Of a DNA stretch of 64,000 nt, positions 42,166-48,142 are shown one piece after another. Position 1 is the stretch's first letter. Every line of letters starts with the position of its first letter. The position numbers and the translations under genes were made by a program. Below the pieces are notes generated by a model. The model was given only the letters and a program-made list of their open reading frames with translations, made no database searches and was not told where the DNA came from. The stretch comes from Actinomycetota bacterium (GTDB lineage Bacteria; Actinomycetota; Acidimicrobiia; Acidimicrobiales; Ilumatobacteraceae), in assembly GCA_030645675.1 (NCBI GenBank), contig JAUSLQ010000207.1, positions 29,906 to 93,905 of the forward strand. The letters run 5' to 3'.

Positions 42166-42208
42166 GCGCCCCCGGTAGGAATCGAACCTACGACCTGCGG
42201 TTTAGGAA
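42166..42208 (-). repeat. att-like direct repeat, copy A: 3' half of tRNA-Arg(CCT)
   Basis: 43 bp identical to 48068-48110; shares 61 bp with copy B. Confidence 0.92.
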
Positions 42209-42546
42209 TGAGCGCGAGGAGGCCTCGTTCAATCGGTTCAAGTCGCATCTGACCTGCTCACCTCCGGCCTTCTCCTCGTCTGACCTCGTTGAACACCATG
42301 CAGTAGCTCGCGGTGGATGGACAACGGGATGGACAACTCGCTTCGCGCTGAGCATCCGCGACTTGGCGACCAGGTGCGCAAGAGCGTCGGCGAAGACCGC
42401 ACGTCGAGGCATCAGTGAGCGCGGCGCAGGTCTGCTGAAGGCGGTGGCCGACGGTACTCCTGCGCGGCCAACCAGCGGAATCGTCCCGACGACAGCGGGA
42501 CAGTGGTCACTGGCGCCCGGGACACGGAAGCGCAGATGCTCCGCAC

Positions 42547-43035
42547 ATGCATCACACCATGTCCCCAATCCGCCGATCCCTTGCTCTCGTCTCGCTCAGC
42601 GTGCTTCCCATGGGTGCCCTCGTCGCTTGCGGCGACGACGAGGAGAAGGCGAGTGTCACCCACGACGAGTTCATCGCCGCCGCGTGCGAGCAGCTGAAGG
42701 GCGTCGATCCCGGGTTCGAACAGTTCTTCGCCGATCACCCCGAGCCCACGCTCGCGGATTGGGTCGAGTTCCTGCCGCGCGTCGAGAGCGAGTTCGACGA
42801 GTTGATCGCTGTCGGAGACCTACCCCGACCCGAGGGCGAAGAGGACACCATCCAGGCCGCGATCGATGCGATGGTGGCCGCCAAGGCCAACTTCACCGTC
42901 GCGCTCGAAGCGGCCAAGGCGGGCGACGAAGACGCGTTCCACGCCAGCGAGGAACTGACCGGTGGTCTCATCGAGAAGATGGAAGCGGCGTTGGACGACG
43001 TGGACGACTCCGAGTGTCCTGGCACGGAGGAGTGA
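42547..43035 (+). CDS. Putative lipoprotein
   Basis: Lipobox GALVAC; GDDEEKASVTHDEFIAAACEQLKGVDPGFEQFFADHPEP. Confidence 0.7.
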   Translation: MHHTMSPIRRSLALVSLSVLPMGALVACGDDEEKASVTHDEFIAAACEQLKGVDPGFEQFFADHPEPTLADWVEFLPRVESEFDELIAVGDLPRPEGEEDTIQAAIDAMVAAKANFTVALEAAKAGDEDAFHASEELTGGLIEKMEAALDDVDDSECPGTEE

Positions 43036-45092
43036 GCGAGCGACGTAGTGTGCGCCCGATGGCTGCCTCGCCGGTATCCGCGAAGGGTTCTCGACTCGCT
43101 ATGACGTTGGGCGCTGCCGGTGCGGTCGCGCTGGCACTCGGTCGCCTGCACTATGAACTGCGGCCGGAGGACGTACCAAACCCGTACGCGCCCACACACC
43201 TGGCCATCGGGGTCTCGTCGGTCGCTGTCGGCGCTTGGCTGGCCCACCGCCTTCCACGCGAGTCCGTGGCCTGGGTCATCCTCGCCGCCGGCCTGCTGGC
43301 TTCATGGATGTACGTGGGTCAACCGCTGTGGGTGGAGCTGTACCTGCTGGGTGCTCCGACGTGGCTGCTGCGCGGTGTGTGGTGGCTGATGCCGTGGCCG
43401 TGGCTCGTGGTGCGCTCGATGCTCCTCATCGTCGCCCCGTCGCAGGTGGTCCGCGAGTTGCTGGGGCGTCCGCGGCGAGCGGTGTTGTGGGCAGGCGTCG
43501 CAGTGACCACCGTTCTCTGCGTCACCCAACTCGTCACTCAGTACGACATGCCTTTCGACGGTAGCGAGGCGATCGAGCCGACTGAGTTGCAGCGTCGCGC
43601 GAGCGATGTCATGGAGTGGGCCTGGCGAGCGCAGTGGTTCACCGGGGCGTTAGCGGTCGGGCTACTCGGCGCGGCCGGCCTGATGCTGAACGGGTCGGCC
43701 GTCCGCCGCCAGACACGTTGGTTCGTCGTGGGTTCGGCGACCCTCGCGTTCGGCGGAGTCTCCGAGCTCGGCAGAGAGGCGTTCCCGAGTTGGCCGTGGC
43801 CAGGCGACCGCTGGGAACTCGTCGCCAGCCTGCTGCTTCCTGTGTCGCTCGCCCTCGCGGTGACGGTCGATCACCTGCTCGACGCCAAGCTCATCGTCCG
43901 GAGGGCTGCCCTCTATGCGACGTTGTCGGTGGTCGCGTTCGTCGCCTATGCGGCCGTGACCGCCTTGCTCGCAGCGGCGTTCTCACCATCCAGCTCGGTC
44001 GCGCGCGCGTCGGCTGCGGCGGGCGCAGCACTGGCGCTCGTCCCGGCACACGCCGCCGCGCGGCGGTGGATCGACACACACATGTACGGCGACTCCCGGC
44101 GACCCGACACAGTGCTCAGTGCCATCGGCACCAGCGTCGCCGAAGCCCCCGGCGCCCGTTCTGCACTCGACGCCGTCGTACAGGCCATCCACGCCTCGAT
44201 GAAGCTGCCATTCGTGTCCGTGTCGCTGGACGCGGGGCCCGACGGCGCGGCACTGGTGAGCGCACGCGCCGGCACGCCGGTCGCCCTGGACGAGTCGTTC
44301 CCGATCGAGCACGCCGGGATCCAGCTCGGCCATCTGGAGGTGGCGCGGCGATCGCCCGGCGAGGAGCTGCGATCCGAGGAACTCGAGCTGCTTGCACGGC
44401 TGGCACTCCAGGTGGGGGTCGTCGCCCACGACGTCTTCCTGGAAGCGCAACTGCGGTCGAGCCGACAGGAACTGGTGGTGGCCCGCGAGGAGGAGCGACG
44501 GCGACTACGAAGCGACCTTCACGACGGGCTGGGACCGACCTTGGCAAGCGTGGTCCTGGGGCTCGATGTGGCCACCCAACACGTGGACGACCACAACCTC
44601 CGCGATCTACTGACAGACCTGGCCAGAGACGTCAACACTGCCATCGACGACATCCGCCGCGTCGTGTACGGACTGCGTCCTCCGGAGCTCGACGAGTACG
44701 GGCTGGCACGCGCCGTTGAGCATCACGTCCGGTCCGTGTCAGCGAGGGTGAACGGCGCGCTCGAGTTGACCGTCTCGTGCGACGATATTCCGGCGCTGCC
44801 CGCCGCGGTGGAAGTGGCCGCGTATCGAATCACACTCGAGGCCATCACCAACGTCACCCGCCATGCCGACGCCACGTCGTGCGCAGTTCAGCTTGCCATT
44901 CGCGACGGCAACCTATGGGTGGAGGTCACCGACGACGGTTCTGGCCTGTCCGACAACCGTCACGTCGGTGTCGGTCTGACGTCGATGCGCGACCGCGCCG
45001 AGGAGCTGCAGGGTGACCTCGAGGTCGACGACAACGATCCCGGGACCCGCGTGCGCGCTCGGCTTCCGCTGCATGAGCTGGTCACCGAATGA
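43032..45092 (+). CDS. NarL-type membrane sensor histidine kinase (HisKA_3)
   Basis: Multiple TMs, GAF-like region, RRRLRSDLHDGLGPTLASVVLGLD, ATPase domain. GTG at 43032 with GGAGG (alternative ATG at 43059). Confidence 0.88.
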   Translation: MSERRSVRPMAASPVSAKGSRLAMTLGAAGAVALALGRLHYELRPEDVPNPYAPTHLAIGVSSVAVGAWLAHRLPRESVAWVILAAGLLASWMYVGQPLWVELYLLGAPTWLLRGVWWLMPWPWLVVRSMLLIVAPSQVVRELLGRPRRAVLWAGVAVTTVLCVTQLVTQYDMPFDGSEAIEPTELQRRASDVMEWAWRAQWFTGALAVGLLGAAGLMLNGSAVRRQTRWFVVGSATLAFGGVSELGREAFPSWPWPGDRWELVASLLLPVSLALAVTVDHLLDAKLIVRRAALYATLSVVAFVAYAAVTALLAAAFSPSSSVARASAAAGAALALVPAHAAARRWIDTHMYGDSRRPDTVLSAIGTSVAEAPGARSALDAVVQAIHASMKLPFVSVSLDAGPDGAALVSARAGTPVALDESFPIEHAGIQLGHLEVARRSPGEELRSEELELLARLALQVGVVAHDVFLEAQLRSSRQELVVAREEERRRLRSDLHDGLGPTLASVVLGLDVATQHVDDHNLRDLLTDLARDVNTAIDDIRRVVYGLRPPELDEYGLARAVEHHVRSVSARVNGALELTVSCDDIPALPAAVEVAAYRITLEAITNVTRHADATSCAVQLAIRDGNLWVEVTDDGSGLSDNRHVGVGLTSMRDRAEELQGDLEVDDNDPGTRVRARLPLHELVTE

Positions 45093-45739
45093 CCGTGACC
45101 GTTCTCGTCGTCGACGACCACCCGACGTTCGTCCGCACGTTGGGCGTCCTGTTGACGGGCGAAGGCTACGAAGTGGTCGGTACCTCGTCCGACGGCGAGA
45201 GCGCCGTCGAACAATGCCTTGCCCTACAGCCCGACGTGGTGATGATGGACATCCAGATGCCCGGCATCGGCGGCATCGAGGCGACACGCCAGATCGTCGA
45301 TGCGGCACCGCAGATCGCGGTCATCGTGCTCACGATGTTCGACGGCGACGACTCCGTTGCGATGGCGCTGCGCGCCGGAGCGAGGGGCTACCTGGTCAAG
45401 GGCGCTCGCCAGGACGAGATCCGCCGCACCGTCGAGATGGTGCTGGACGGCCACGCCGTCATCTCCCGATCGGTCGTGAAGCATCTGCCGGGAATCGCTC
45501 GTGAGCGCAACGGCGACGACCACCACCCGTTCCCGTCCCTCACGACACGAGAACGCGACGTGCTGCAGGCCATCGCCGACGGACTCGACAACGATGCGAT
45601 CTCACGGCGTCTATACCTGAGTCAGAAGACCGTCCGCAACTACGTGTCATCCGTGCTGACCAAACTGCAAGTGTCCACGCGGTCCGAGGCGATCGTCGCG
45701 GCGCGAACCAACGGCATCGGATCCACCCCGGACGCCTGA
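45089..45739 (+). CDS. NarL/LuxR-type response regulator
   Basis: VLVVDDHPTFVRTLGVLL...MDIQMPGIGG; HTH LTTRERDVLQAIADGLDNDAISRRLYLSQKTVRNYVSSVLTKL. Confidence 0.95.
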   Translation: MTVTVLVVDDHPTFVRTLGVLLTGEGYEVVGTSSDGESAVEQCLALQPDVVMMDIQMPGIGGIEATRQIVDAAPQIAVIVLTMFDGDDSVAMALRAGARGYLVKGARQDEIRRTVEMVLDGHAVISRSVVKHLPGIARERNGDDHHPFPSLTTRERDVLQAIADGLDNDAISRRLYLSQKTVRNYVSSVLTKLQVSTRSEAIVAARTNGIGSTPDA

Positions 45740-45854
45740 AGCCACCCCTCGCCCGGGTGATTTCGCCAGCTCTCGTCGAGGCGGGCCGCTGACGGCGCCG
45801 CGTCCGGGAGTTGGGTGGCCCCGTTGCGACCTCCGAGCTTGATGGCATCTGGTA

Positions 45855-45879
45855 GTTGTGCAACGAGTCCTTGCACAAC
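45855..45879. repeat. Inverted repeat GTTGTGCAA-N7-TTGCACAAC
   Basis: Perfect 9-bp arms downstream of the response regulator, upstream of att copy B. Confidence 0.8.
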
Positions 45880-45993
45880 CACCGACAAGACCGTGCGTCT
45901 CCATCTCAACCAGTGTCGTCGCGCCATCTCCAGCCTGCCTGAGCGTCGCCGAGTTCGCCACCTTCAGAGTTCCTAGGGCTCGCTGTCCACCAC

Positions 45994-46016
45994 TTGTCCA
46001 TCCGAAAGATGGACAA
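45994..46016. repeat. Inverted repeat TTGTCCATC-CGAAA-GATGGACAA adjacent to att copy B
   Basis: Perfect 9-bp arms; GATGGACAA recurs at 46226, 46238, 42316 and 42328. Confidence 0.85.
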
Positions 46017-46075
46017 CTCAACGGCCGACCAGATGGTTGCACACCGCAAGCACCACCATCTACCAGGTGTTATTG

Positions 46076-46118
46076 GCGCCCCCGGTAGGAATCGAACCTA
46101 CGACCTGCGGTTTAGGAA
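46076..46118 (-). repeat. att-like direct repeat, copy B: 3' half of tRNA-Arg(CCT)
   Basis: 43 bp identical to tRNA segment 48068-48110; 61 bp identical to copy A; similarity extends to ~46247. Confidence 0.92.
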
Positions 46119-46305
46119 TGAGCGCGAGGAGGCCTCAGCGAGTCACCTTGAATCGCATCTGACCTGCTCAGCTTCTGTCTTCTCCTCGTCTGGCCTCGTT
46201 GAACATCATGCAGTAGCGCGCAGTAGATGGACAAGTGGATGGACAACTTTGGTCGCAACATTCGATGTCACTTGCGTTTGTTTCGATACAGGGTACAGTT
46301 GGCTC

Positions 46306-46713
46306 ATGTCCAAGGTCCTCGATGATCGTGCACTGGCGAACCACGCACTCCTCGCTCTGCGCCGGCGACCGTCGCGCTTCACGCTGCCCGACGGCACGTC
46401 CGTGCGCATTCCCAAAGCAGCGGTCGACGGCCTGATCGAACTACTGACAGCCGCCGCCGCCGGCGACGAGGCCATGATCGTTCGCTCGCCACGGGAGCTC
46501 ACCACGCAGCAGGCGGCAAAGCTCTTGAACGTATCCCGGCCGACGGTCGTGAAGCTGATCGACGACGGCGTGCTGCCGGCACGCAAGGTCGGCTCCCATC
46601 GCCGAGTACCACTCACCGATCTGCTTGCCTTTCGTCAGGATGTAGTCGCGAAACGCCGTGCGGCACTCGACGAGATGACAACCGACGCCGAAGAACTCGG
46701 GCTGTACGACTGA
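46306..46713 (+). CDS. HTH (excisionase/MerR-like) antitoxin candidate
   Basis: ELTTQQAAKLLNVSRPTVVKLIDDGVLPARKVGSHRRVPLTDLLAFRQD; directly upstream of PIN gene. Confidence 0.85.
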   Translation: MSKVLDDRALANHALLALRRRPSRFTLPDGTSVRIPKAAVDGLIELLTAAAAGDEAMIVRSPRELTTQQAAKLLNVSRPTVVKLIDDGVLPARKVGSHRRVPLTDLLAFRQDVVAKRRAALDEMTTDAEELGLYD

Positions 46714-46718
46714 GGGCG

Positions 46719-47276
46719 ATGAACCAACCAGTCGCAGTGCTCGACGCCGACGTGCTGGTGCCGGTGCTCGTCTGCGATCTCCTGCTCTCCATGTTCGACG
46801 CCGAACTCTTCCAGCCAGCGGTCAGCCCAACGATCTTGGCGGAGGTAGAACGAAGCCTGATCGCTGACTTCCCTCGCCTCGATCCAGATGGACTTCGTCG
46901 ACGAGTCGATGCCATGGCACGGGCGCTTGCCCTGCACGTTCACGACGTCACCCAAGAGAACGATGCGGCACTGGCCGGCATCAATCGCAAGGACCGACAT
47001 GTCGCCGCGCTCGCATTGACTCAGCACGCCGACCTGGTGGTGACCAACGATCGTCGGCTCCGACGAGAGATCAACGCGCTCAGCCTTCCCCTTCGAGCAC
47101 TTTCGGCCGACGAGTTCGTCCTGCGCCTCGTGCTCGACGACCGCACGCAGGTTGACGATGTCATCGACGAACTGGTCACCAAGCGACAGCGCAGACCGGT
47201 CACCCGCGCGGCGCTGCTCGACCAACTCGCCGTCGCCGTACCACGTGCCATCGCCGAGTTGCGGTCCACCGCTTGA
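46719..47276 (+). CDS. PIN domain toxin candidate
   Basis: VAVLDADVLVPVLVCDLLL...NRKDRHVAALALTQHADLVVTNDRRL. Confidence 0.88.
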   Translation: MNQPVAVLDADVLVPVLVCDLLLSMFDAELFQPAVSPTILAEVERSLIADFPRLDPDGLRRRVDAMARALALHVHDVTQENDAALAGINRKDRHVAALALTQHADLVVTNDRRLRREINALSLPLRALSADEFVLRLVLDDRTQVDDVIDELVTKRQRRPVTRAALLDQLAVAVPRAIAELRSTA

Positions 47277-47384
47277 CGCTCTCTTCGTTGCGGCACTCCT
47301 CGTCTCACAGGGGCTACCGAGTTCGACGATGCTGGACACCCTCTGAAGCTGAGTGCCCGTAGGGTCCAAGACGAAACGGAGTCA

Positions 47385-47579
47385 TCAACGAAACAGTTGT
47401 AAGATTGCCAATAGACCCAAGAGGATGGCGCCGAACCCGAACGCCCACCAACGACCCAAGTCGCCGGCGAACGAACTCGGAGTGCGCCGTCGTCGACGCA
47501 GGCCTGACCACCAAGCCAGACCGCAGGCGACTGCACATACTGCTAGCAGAACGGTGCTTTGTGAGTTAGATTTGGACAA
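47385..47579 (-). CDS. Small hypothetical membrane protein
   Basis: 64 aa, two hydrophobic segments; TTG start with upstream GGAG. Confidence 0.35.
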   Translation of the reverse strand: MSKSNSQSTVLLAVCAVACGLAWWSGLRRRRRTPSSFAGDLGRWWAFGFGAILLGLLAILQLFR

Positions 47580-48022
47580 CGTAGCTCCAGTTAAGTGTAT
47601 ATCCTCCGCCTAGGTCCTGGCCAGCCGTATATATATTCAGCGAGCTGGCCGCGACGAACCCCGTCATCACGGGTGTTCCACGCCAATGACACGGATTTAA
47701 TCTGCGAGCTCGATAGTCCTGGTACGAGGCTGGGAATCGACGCTTTGCCCCCGAACGCGATGACATGAATAATAAGCGATCCCGCCCAGCCGGAGCAAGA
47801 CGAGTGCCCTTGGGTACACGACCAAGCAGTCGCCACGACATCTCGACCAACTGCGGTGCCGCCAGCCACCGTCGCTATCCCACCGGCCACGGCACATCCC
47901 ATCCCGCCTGTTTCCGCGCATCCAACATTTCCTCCCAATCTCCTCCCAATGACAGAGGCAAATGGCGGTCACGCATGGTCGTTGGTGGACAATCCGAGCA
48001 CGGCAGAAACTTCTTGCGCATC

Positions 48023-48056
48023 GCTCTCTACCAGGTAATATCCCCTGGTAGAGAGC
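48023..48056. terminator. 13-bp perfect hairpin just 3' of tRNA-Arg
   Basis: GCTCTCTACCAGG-taatatcc-CCTGGTAGAGAGC; no T-tract, so terminator function is tentative. Confidence 0.5.
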
Positions 48057-48068
48057 CGATTTGCAGAG

Positions 48069-48142
48069 CGCCCCCGGTAGGAATCGAACCTACGACCTGC
48101 GGTTTAGGAAACCGTTGCTCTATCCGACTGAGCTACGGGAGC
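48069..48142 (-). tRNA. tRNA-Arg (anticodon CCT)
   Basis: Reverse strand GCTCCCGTAGCTCAGTCGGATAGAGCAACGGTTTCCTAAACCGCAGGTCGTAGGTTCGATTCCTACCGGGGGCG folds as cloverleaf; CCA not encoded. Confidence 0.95.

Follow-up and report, generated by a model that had tools for sequence, protein, structure and literature searches.

In the attachment sites of the Cluster K mycobacteriophages, short pairs of arm-type repeats flank tRNA or tmRNA cores, and related integrases are associated with different repeat words (PMC3203893). Elements that lack an integrase, have att sites at their ends and stack at a single target have been described as cis-mobilizable elements (CIMEs; PMC7563491), and environmental bacteria harbor cargo-carrying elements at their tRNA genes, the Tycheposons and other helper-dependent tRNA elements (PMC10872708, PMC11389934). 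The arrangement that we describe here is of a known kind, and the example itself is new. We analyzed a 64-kb stretch of DNA from a member of the Acidimicrobiia, in the following referred to as the window, and consider it very likely that the word GATGGACAA is the arm-type word of a tRNA-targeting tyrosine integrase and that the region 42166-48110 represents two mobile segments without an integrase, A and B, stacked in tandem at the 3' end of a tRNA-Arg(CCT) gene (Table 1).

The sites predicted in the window resemble the arm-type sites of the lambda class and of the Cluster K phages in being short paired repeats, arranged both as direct pairs and as pairs in opposite orientation around a common core of the tRNA type. 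They differ from the Cluster K sites in that the word is 9 bp long, is repeated with a 12-nt spacing, and occurs in the Acidimicrobiia without an adjacent integrase. With CIMEs, the segments, which are 2-4 kb in size, have in common that they are att-flanked and integrase-less, carry varied cargo, and stand in tandem at the 3' end of the target gene: three 43-bp cores with arms are present at a single target gene, and neither recombination genes (family HMM) nor genes for conjugation or mobilization (Pfam) were found in segments A and B. However, the array contains no ICE, IME or phage that we could find in the window, and the ends of segment B stem from two att families. Since no ICE or IME parent was identified, we call segments A and B CIME-like elements and not CIMEs. 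As cargo elements at tRNA genes, the segments are similar to Tycheposons, of which they may be satellite forms; a tyrosine recombinase encoded by the element, as in Tycheposons, was recognized neither in A nor in B.

Table 1. Features of the tRNA-Arg(CCT) array, with positions given in nucleotides of the window.
Feature	Position	Strand	Basis or remark
att core copy (tRNA-Arg(CCT) 3' half), far end of segment A	42166-42208	-	43 bp
P' arm of segment A, ending in the direct GATGGACAA pair 42316-42324 / 42328-42336	42209-42336	+	87% identical to the B copy (173 bp including core)
Cargo of segment A	42547-45739	+	Pfam
Segment A, small protein	42547-43035	+	No Pfam match
Segment A, histidine kinase	43062-45092	+	HisKA_3 and HATPase_c (Pfam)
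Segment A, LuxR-type response regulator	45089-45739	+	Pfam
Inverted pair in the P arm of segment A, with TTGTCCATC (45994) and GATGGACAA (46008) forming a short palindrome	45994-46016		Shared with relatives
att core copy, A/B junction	46076-46118	-	43 bp
P' arm of segment B with the direct pair 46226-46234 / 46238-46246	46119-46246	+	Arms 77-97% identical in other genomes
Cargo of segment B	46306-47276	+	Pfam
Segment B, HTH_17 protein	46306-46713	+	Pfam
Segment B, PIN_3 protein	46719-47276	+	Pfam
Right end of segment B, where another word, CTCCCAAT, forms a direct pair at 47932 and 47943	47932-47950	-	Common to G235:C211 and G232:C133
GGTGGACAA, the earlier near-tRNA copy	47984-47992	+	GGAGGTCAA in both relatives
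Hairpin CTCTCTACCAGG...CCTGGTAGAGAG just outside the core	48024-48055		Read from sequence; also in L272
Intact tRNA-Arg(CCT), putative integration target	48068-48142	-	ARAGORN

The 43-bp core is 100% identical in the three places in which it occurs, the third being the part 48068-48110 of the intact tRNA gene. The two tRNA-derived copies have 173 bp in common, which consist of the 43-bp tRNA 3' half and about 130 bp ending in a GATGGACAA pair. When elements integrate into a tRNA gene, the sequence to the right of each distal core constitutes one end of the element, and that to the left of the next core the other end. Applied to the positions of the three cores, this usual logic delimits segment A as 42166-46118 and segment B as 46076-48110. 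Judged by their sequence, both ends of segment A belong to the GATGGACAA att family, and its direct pair is located at +112/+124 from the anticodon triplet.

To follow the distribution of the word, we counted it in the window and in the genome. Exact copies of GATGGACAA occur six times in the window (42316+, 42328+, 45994-, 46008+, 46226+ and 46238+), all of them confined to 42316-46246; when up to one mismatch was allowed, the window contained 22 copies compared to 10.2 +/- 2.9 in shuffled sequences. The organism's own genome (4.09 Mb, in an assembly that is 80% complete) contains 35 exact copies, and the reversed control word is present 44 times. A general enrichment of the word in the genome is absent; its distribution is uneven, with 6 of the 35 genomic copies falling within 3.93 kb, a length for which chance predicts about 0.03. 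The original prediction, which had read the words as arm-type sites, had placed a direct pair inside each att copy. Both pairs are present at the proposed positions and with the proposed 12-nt spacing, but they lie at the segment ends, about 110 nt outside the crossover region, and not in the 43-bp core. The inverted pair proposed just outside the second copy is borne out by the exact copies at 45994- and 46008+. A further copy near the intact tRNA gene, GGTGGACAA, had been placed at 47994, whereas its true coordinates are 47984-47992; since two relatives that possess this stretch read GGAGGTCAA there, we dropped it from the GATGGACAA set, and its sequence is probably a chance match.

Seven more genomes of the family possess the P' arm or a part of it, as does L121, a metagenome record titled Glaciihabitans. 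About 112 nt separate the anticodon from the start of the direct pair in copies from eight genomes. Among 12 aligned tRNA-Arg P' arms, the first word begins at +112 from the anticodon triplet in 10, and at +111 and +113 in the remaining two. The mean pairwise column identity of these 12 arms is 1.0 and 0.93 for the two words and 0.81 for the other arm positions; immediately past the pair, where conservation drops, it is 0.23. Hence, the word is present in the att sites of related elements, and it holds the same positions there. The cargo beside the conserved arm varies each time (a two-component system; HTH/PIN; MarR/Usp/TetR/P450/MFS; HxlR/molybdopterin oxidoreductase; AAA/FecCD), and differs even where the arms of different genera are up to 97% identical. 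In G004, G013 and G014, an intact tRNA-Arg(CCT) gene and a distal core enclose about 3.2, 5.9 and 9.4 kb, respectively, again with differing cargo. On the opposite arm, the palindrome formed by TTGTCCATC and GATGGACAA with 5 nt between them is located at about -120/-106 from the anticodon in segment A of the window, in G002, in G034 and in L121, with an agreement within 5 nt; in G013 and G014, one half of the palindrome is exact. The word is consequently found on both sides of the core and away from the crossover (+112/+124 and about -120/-106). Since the conserved stretch in G027 starts only at CGGTTTAGGA, without the remaining tRNA, strand exchange is suggested to take place where the tRNA gene encodes the anticodon loop.

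When the whole segments A and B were used as DNA queries, neither cargo was found at a tRNA a second time; in plasmid and phage collections the arm had no match save for a 40-bp tRNA match in one phage, and a scan of IMG/VR with a long arm pattern gave no match. The flanks could not be aligned with those of the same-genus genomes that we compared for an empty site.

A scan of 84,980 species genomes with the pattern GATGGACAANNNGATGGACAAC yielded 32 stretches, 17 of which were set aside as unrelated by their sequence context and taxa; the other 15 are att contexts by sequence, most of which adjoin a tRNA 3' fragment. At two of these loci (L094 and L114) the pair follows the 3' end of an intact tRNA-Glu(CTC) gene and precedes the beginning of a tyrosine integrase gene, and a third (L212) shows the same layout at tRNA-Glu, with one mismatch in the pair. 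The three loci belong to three other Acidimicrobiia genomes, and the L094 integrase possesses the domains PF14659 and PF00589 (Pfam). At distal tRNA-Glu fragments, the pair is found at +109 from the anticodon in 7 of 10 cases, in arms whose sequence is unrelated to that of the tRNA-Arg group, and in G246 an identical 21-nt pair is present both at the integrase side and at the distal tRNA-Glu fragment. The word thus occurs in the att region of elements that encode a tyrosine integrase (L094, L114 and L212) and, in G246, at both ends. Together with its constant placement in the att sites, the occurrence of the same word upstream of these integrase genes supports the reading as an integrase arm-type site, to which the enzyme would bind in the window as well. 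At L205 (G248:C147), two pairs 215 bp apart surround a single tRNA-Glu core, a tandem junction like that at 45994-46246 of the window. One candidate for an integrase beside the pair, L115, was dropped because the arms upstream of this integrase gene read TGCTACTG, at tRNA-Arg(ACG), and the pair is located past the gene's 3' end.

For relatives of the L094 integrase in the family and in the order, 60 upstream regions were inspected. A direct 9-mer pair with a spacing of 11-12 nt and at most one mismatch is present upstream of 39 of these genes, whereas 200 dinucleotide shuffles gave 1.3 on average and never more than 8; other spacings gave few. These data reveal a large integrase family of the Acidimicrobiia with one layout, in which the tRNA 3' end is followed by a paired 9-bp arm word with 11-12-nt spacing and then by the integrase gene. 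The words vary by clade (TTGCCAATC, TTGGGAATC, CATCCAAGA, TCCTGCACA, TTGTCCATC and others). At constant catalytic-domain identity, word similarity tracks the identity of the N-terminal domain (partial Mantel r 0.29, p 0.0005), and the reverse test, of the catalytic domain given the N-terminal domain, gave r 0.01 and p 0.43; since the units compared are related integrases and not phylogenetically independent, these p values are indicative and their significance may be overstated. Such covariation is the pattern expected if the N-terminal domain reads the arm word. Because the word differs between clades and tracks the N-terminal domain, the integrase/arm pairs provide a starting point for an arm-site code.

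Very probably, a phage-type integrase docks at the GATGGACAA copies in the ends of the small mobile segments. The N-terminal domain of the integrase would grip two sites, the direct pair of the P' arm, at about 110 bp or ten helical turns from the crossover, and, on its other side, the inverted pair of the P arm, at about 106-120 bp. Bending of the DNA would carry the arm sites to the core, where the catalytic domain would exchange strands within the portion of the tRNA gene that encodes the anticodon loop. The segments, which may be mobile at present, would provide sites only, and the integrase would arrive in trans or from an element inserting beside them. A repeat noticed by eye has thereby become a testable att site.

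The same words could be explained in other ways. Pairs of short repeats are common operators, and in segment B about 60 bp lie between the end of the pair and the downstream HTH_17 start at 46306; the words might be operators of a regulator, e.g., of the HTH_17 protein of segment B acting as an antitoxin that represses the promoter of its own HTH/PIN pair. However, the same pair is found at the same distance from the core beside unrelated genes in segment A and in other genomes, and it also adjoins the integrase genes at tRNA-Glu, which makes an operator function very improbable. We regard recognition of the words by a recombination directionality factor (excisionase) or a host DNA-bending protein, in place of the integrase, as improbable. 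Excisionase sites are likewise short repeats in att arms; yet both arms contain the words, about ten helical turns away, and the words covary with the N-terminal domain of the integrase beyond the effect of the catalytic domain, as arm-type sites should.

Inheritance also has to be considered, i.e., that the pair has been kept only through recent copying of one duplicated, dead element. The tRNA-Arg arms are 77-97% identical, and the constant spacing within this group is therefore partly inherited. The tRNA-Glu arms, however, are unrelated in sequence and nevertheless display the same word, the same pairing and a nearly equal distance, and the words are among the best-conserved stretches of the arms; neutral homology is thus exceedingly doubtful as the sole explanation.

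The integrase-family HMM (E 1e-3) found no match in the 64-kb window, hence none in segments A or B, and none in the related tRNA-Arg(CCT) elements that share the arm; this absence pertains to this integrase family, since serine recombinases were not covered separately and an unrelated recombinase could escape. The five main ORFs of A and B gave no relaxase or VirB4 match (Pfam). An integrase joining the GATGGACAA arm word with tRNA-Arg(CCT) was found in none of 222 genomes of the family or 397 of the order, and the three integrases with the arm word are all located at tRNA-Glu. The organism's own integrases were assessed as helpers by reading the upstream regions of its nine PF00589 genes; none contains the word in this assembly, which is only 80% complete. 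In the near-complete genomes G004, G013, G014, G034 and G235, no pair (at most two mismatches) shares a contig with a PF00589 gene among the matches listed.

We tentatively propose, as a possibility that we consider rather unlikely, that the integrase-less segments are not decay products but persistent non-autonomous tRNA cassettes, mobilized in trans by transient integrases of matching arm specificity. Such cassettes would have kept only matched arms and a core, and would have acquired cargo that varies and comprises one to a few genes, comparable to MITEs and integrase-less cassette arrays, both of which use helper enzymes. This proposal is supported by the presence of the arm in several genomes, with no integrase recognized at the arm in any of them, with up to 97% identity between genera and with different cargo; it is weakened because neither a helper nor a circular form nor an empty site was seen. 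Arm words offer a route to integrase-less elements that are missed by gene-based searches.

The HTH_17 and PIN_3 genes of segment B probably form a toxin-antitoxin pair. The right end of this segment, beside the intact tRNA gene, is 87% identical to an end in G235:C211; the ends in G235:C211 and G232:C133 also adjoin tRNA-Arg(CCT) 3' fragments. Since this right end falls outside the GATGGACAA family and possesses a CTCCCAAT pair instead, segment B is best read as a hybrid, with the left end of the GATGGACAA att family and the right end of another, which probably arose through recombination or deletion in the array. The strong hairpin CTCTCTACCAGG/CCTGGTAGAGAG between core and arm is also found in L272 and is for this reason probably part of the element end and not of the host flank. 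Positions 47926-48067 of the window, L272 (G235:C211) and L273 (G232:C133) make up a second att family at tRNA-Arg(CCT), characterized by the CTCCCAAT direct pair. In G232:C133, the tRNA-Arg(CCT) fragment is closely followed by the C-terminal part of a tyrosine recombinase.

At two loci (L067:515-657 in G027:C55 and L165:1300-1521 in G310:C21), the arm and its pair adjoin only the anticodon-loop part of the core, without other tRNA sequence; these are possible secondary insertion sites. At L088:7019-7051 (G235:C104), GATGGACAA is present three times in tandem with 12-nt spacing, and not twice. A second word, CCWGSTCAG-like with the variants CAGGTCAGA and CCTGGTAGA, is located about 10 nt past the tRNA 3' end at most integrase loci (flanks in L127-L240), and recurs in the P' arms as TGACCTGCTCAG, in the window at 46155-46170. 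This word is possibly a further site of the same recombination complex.
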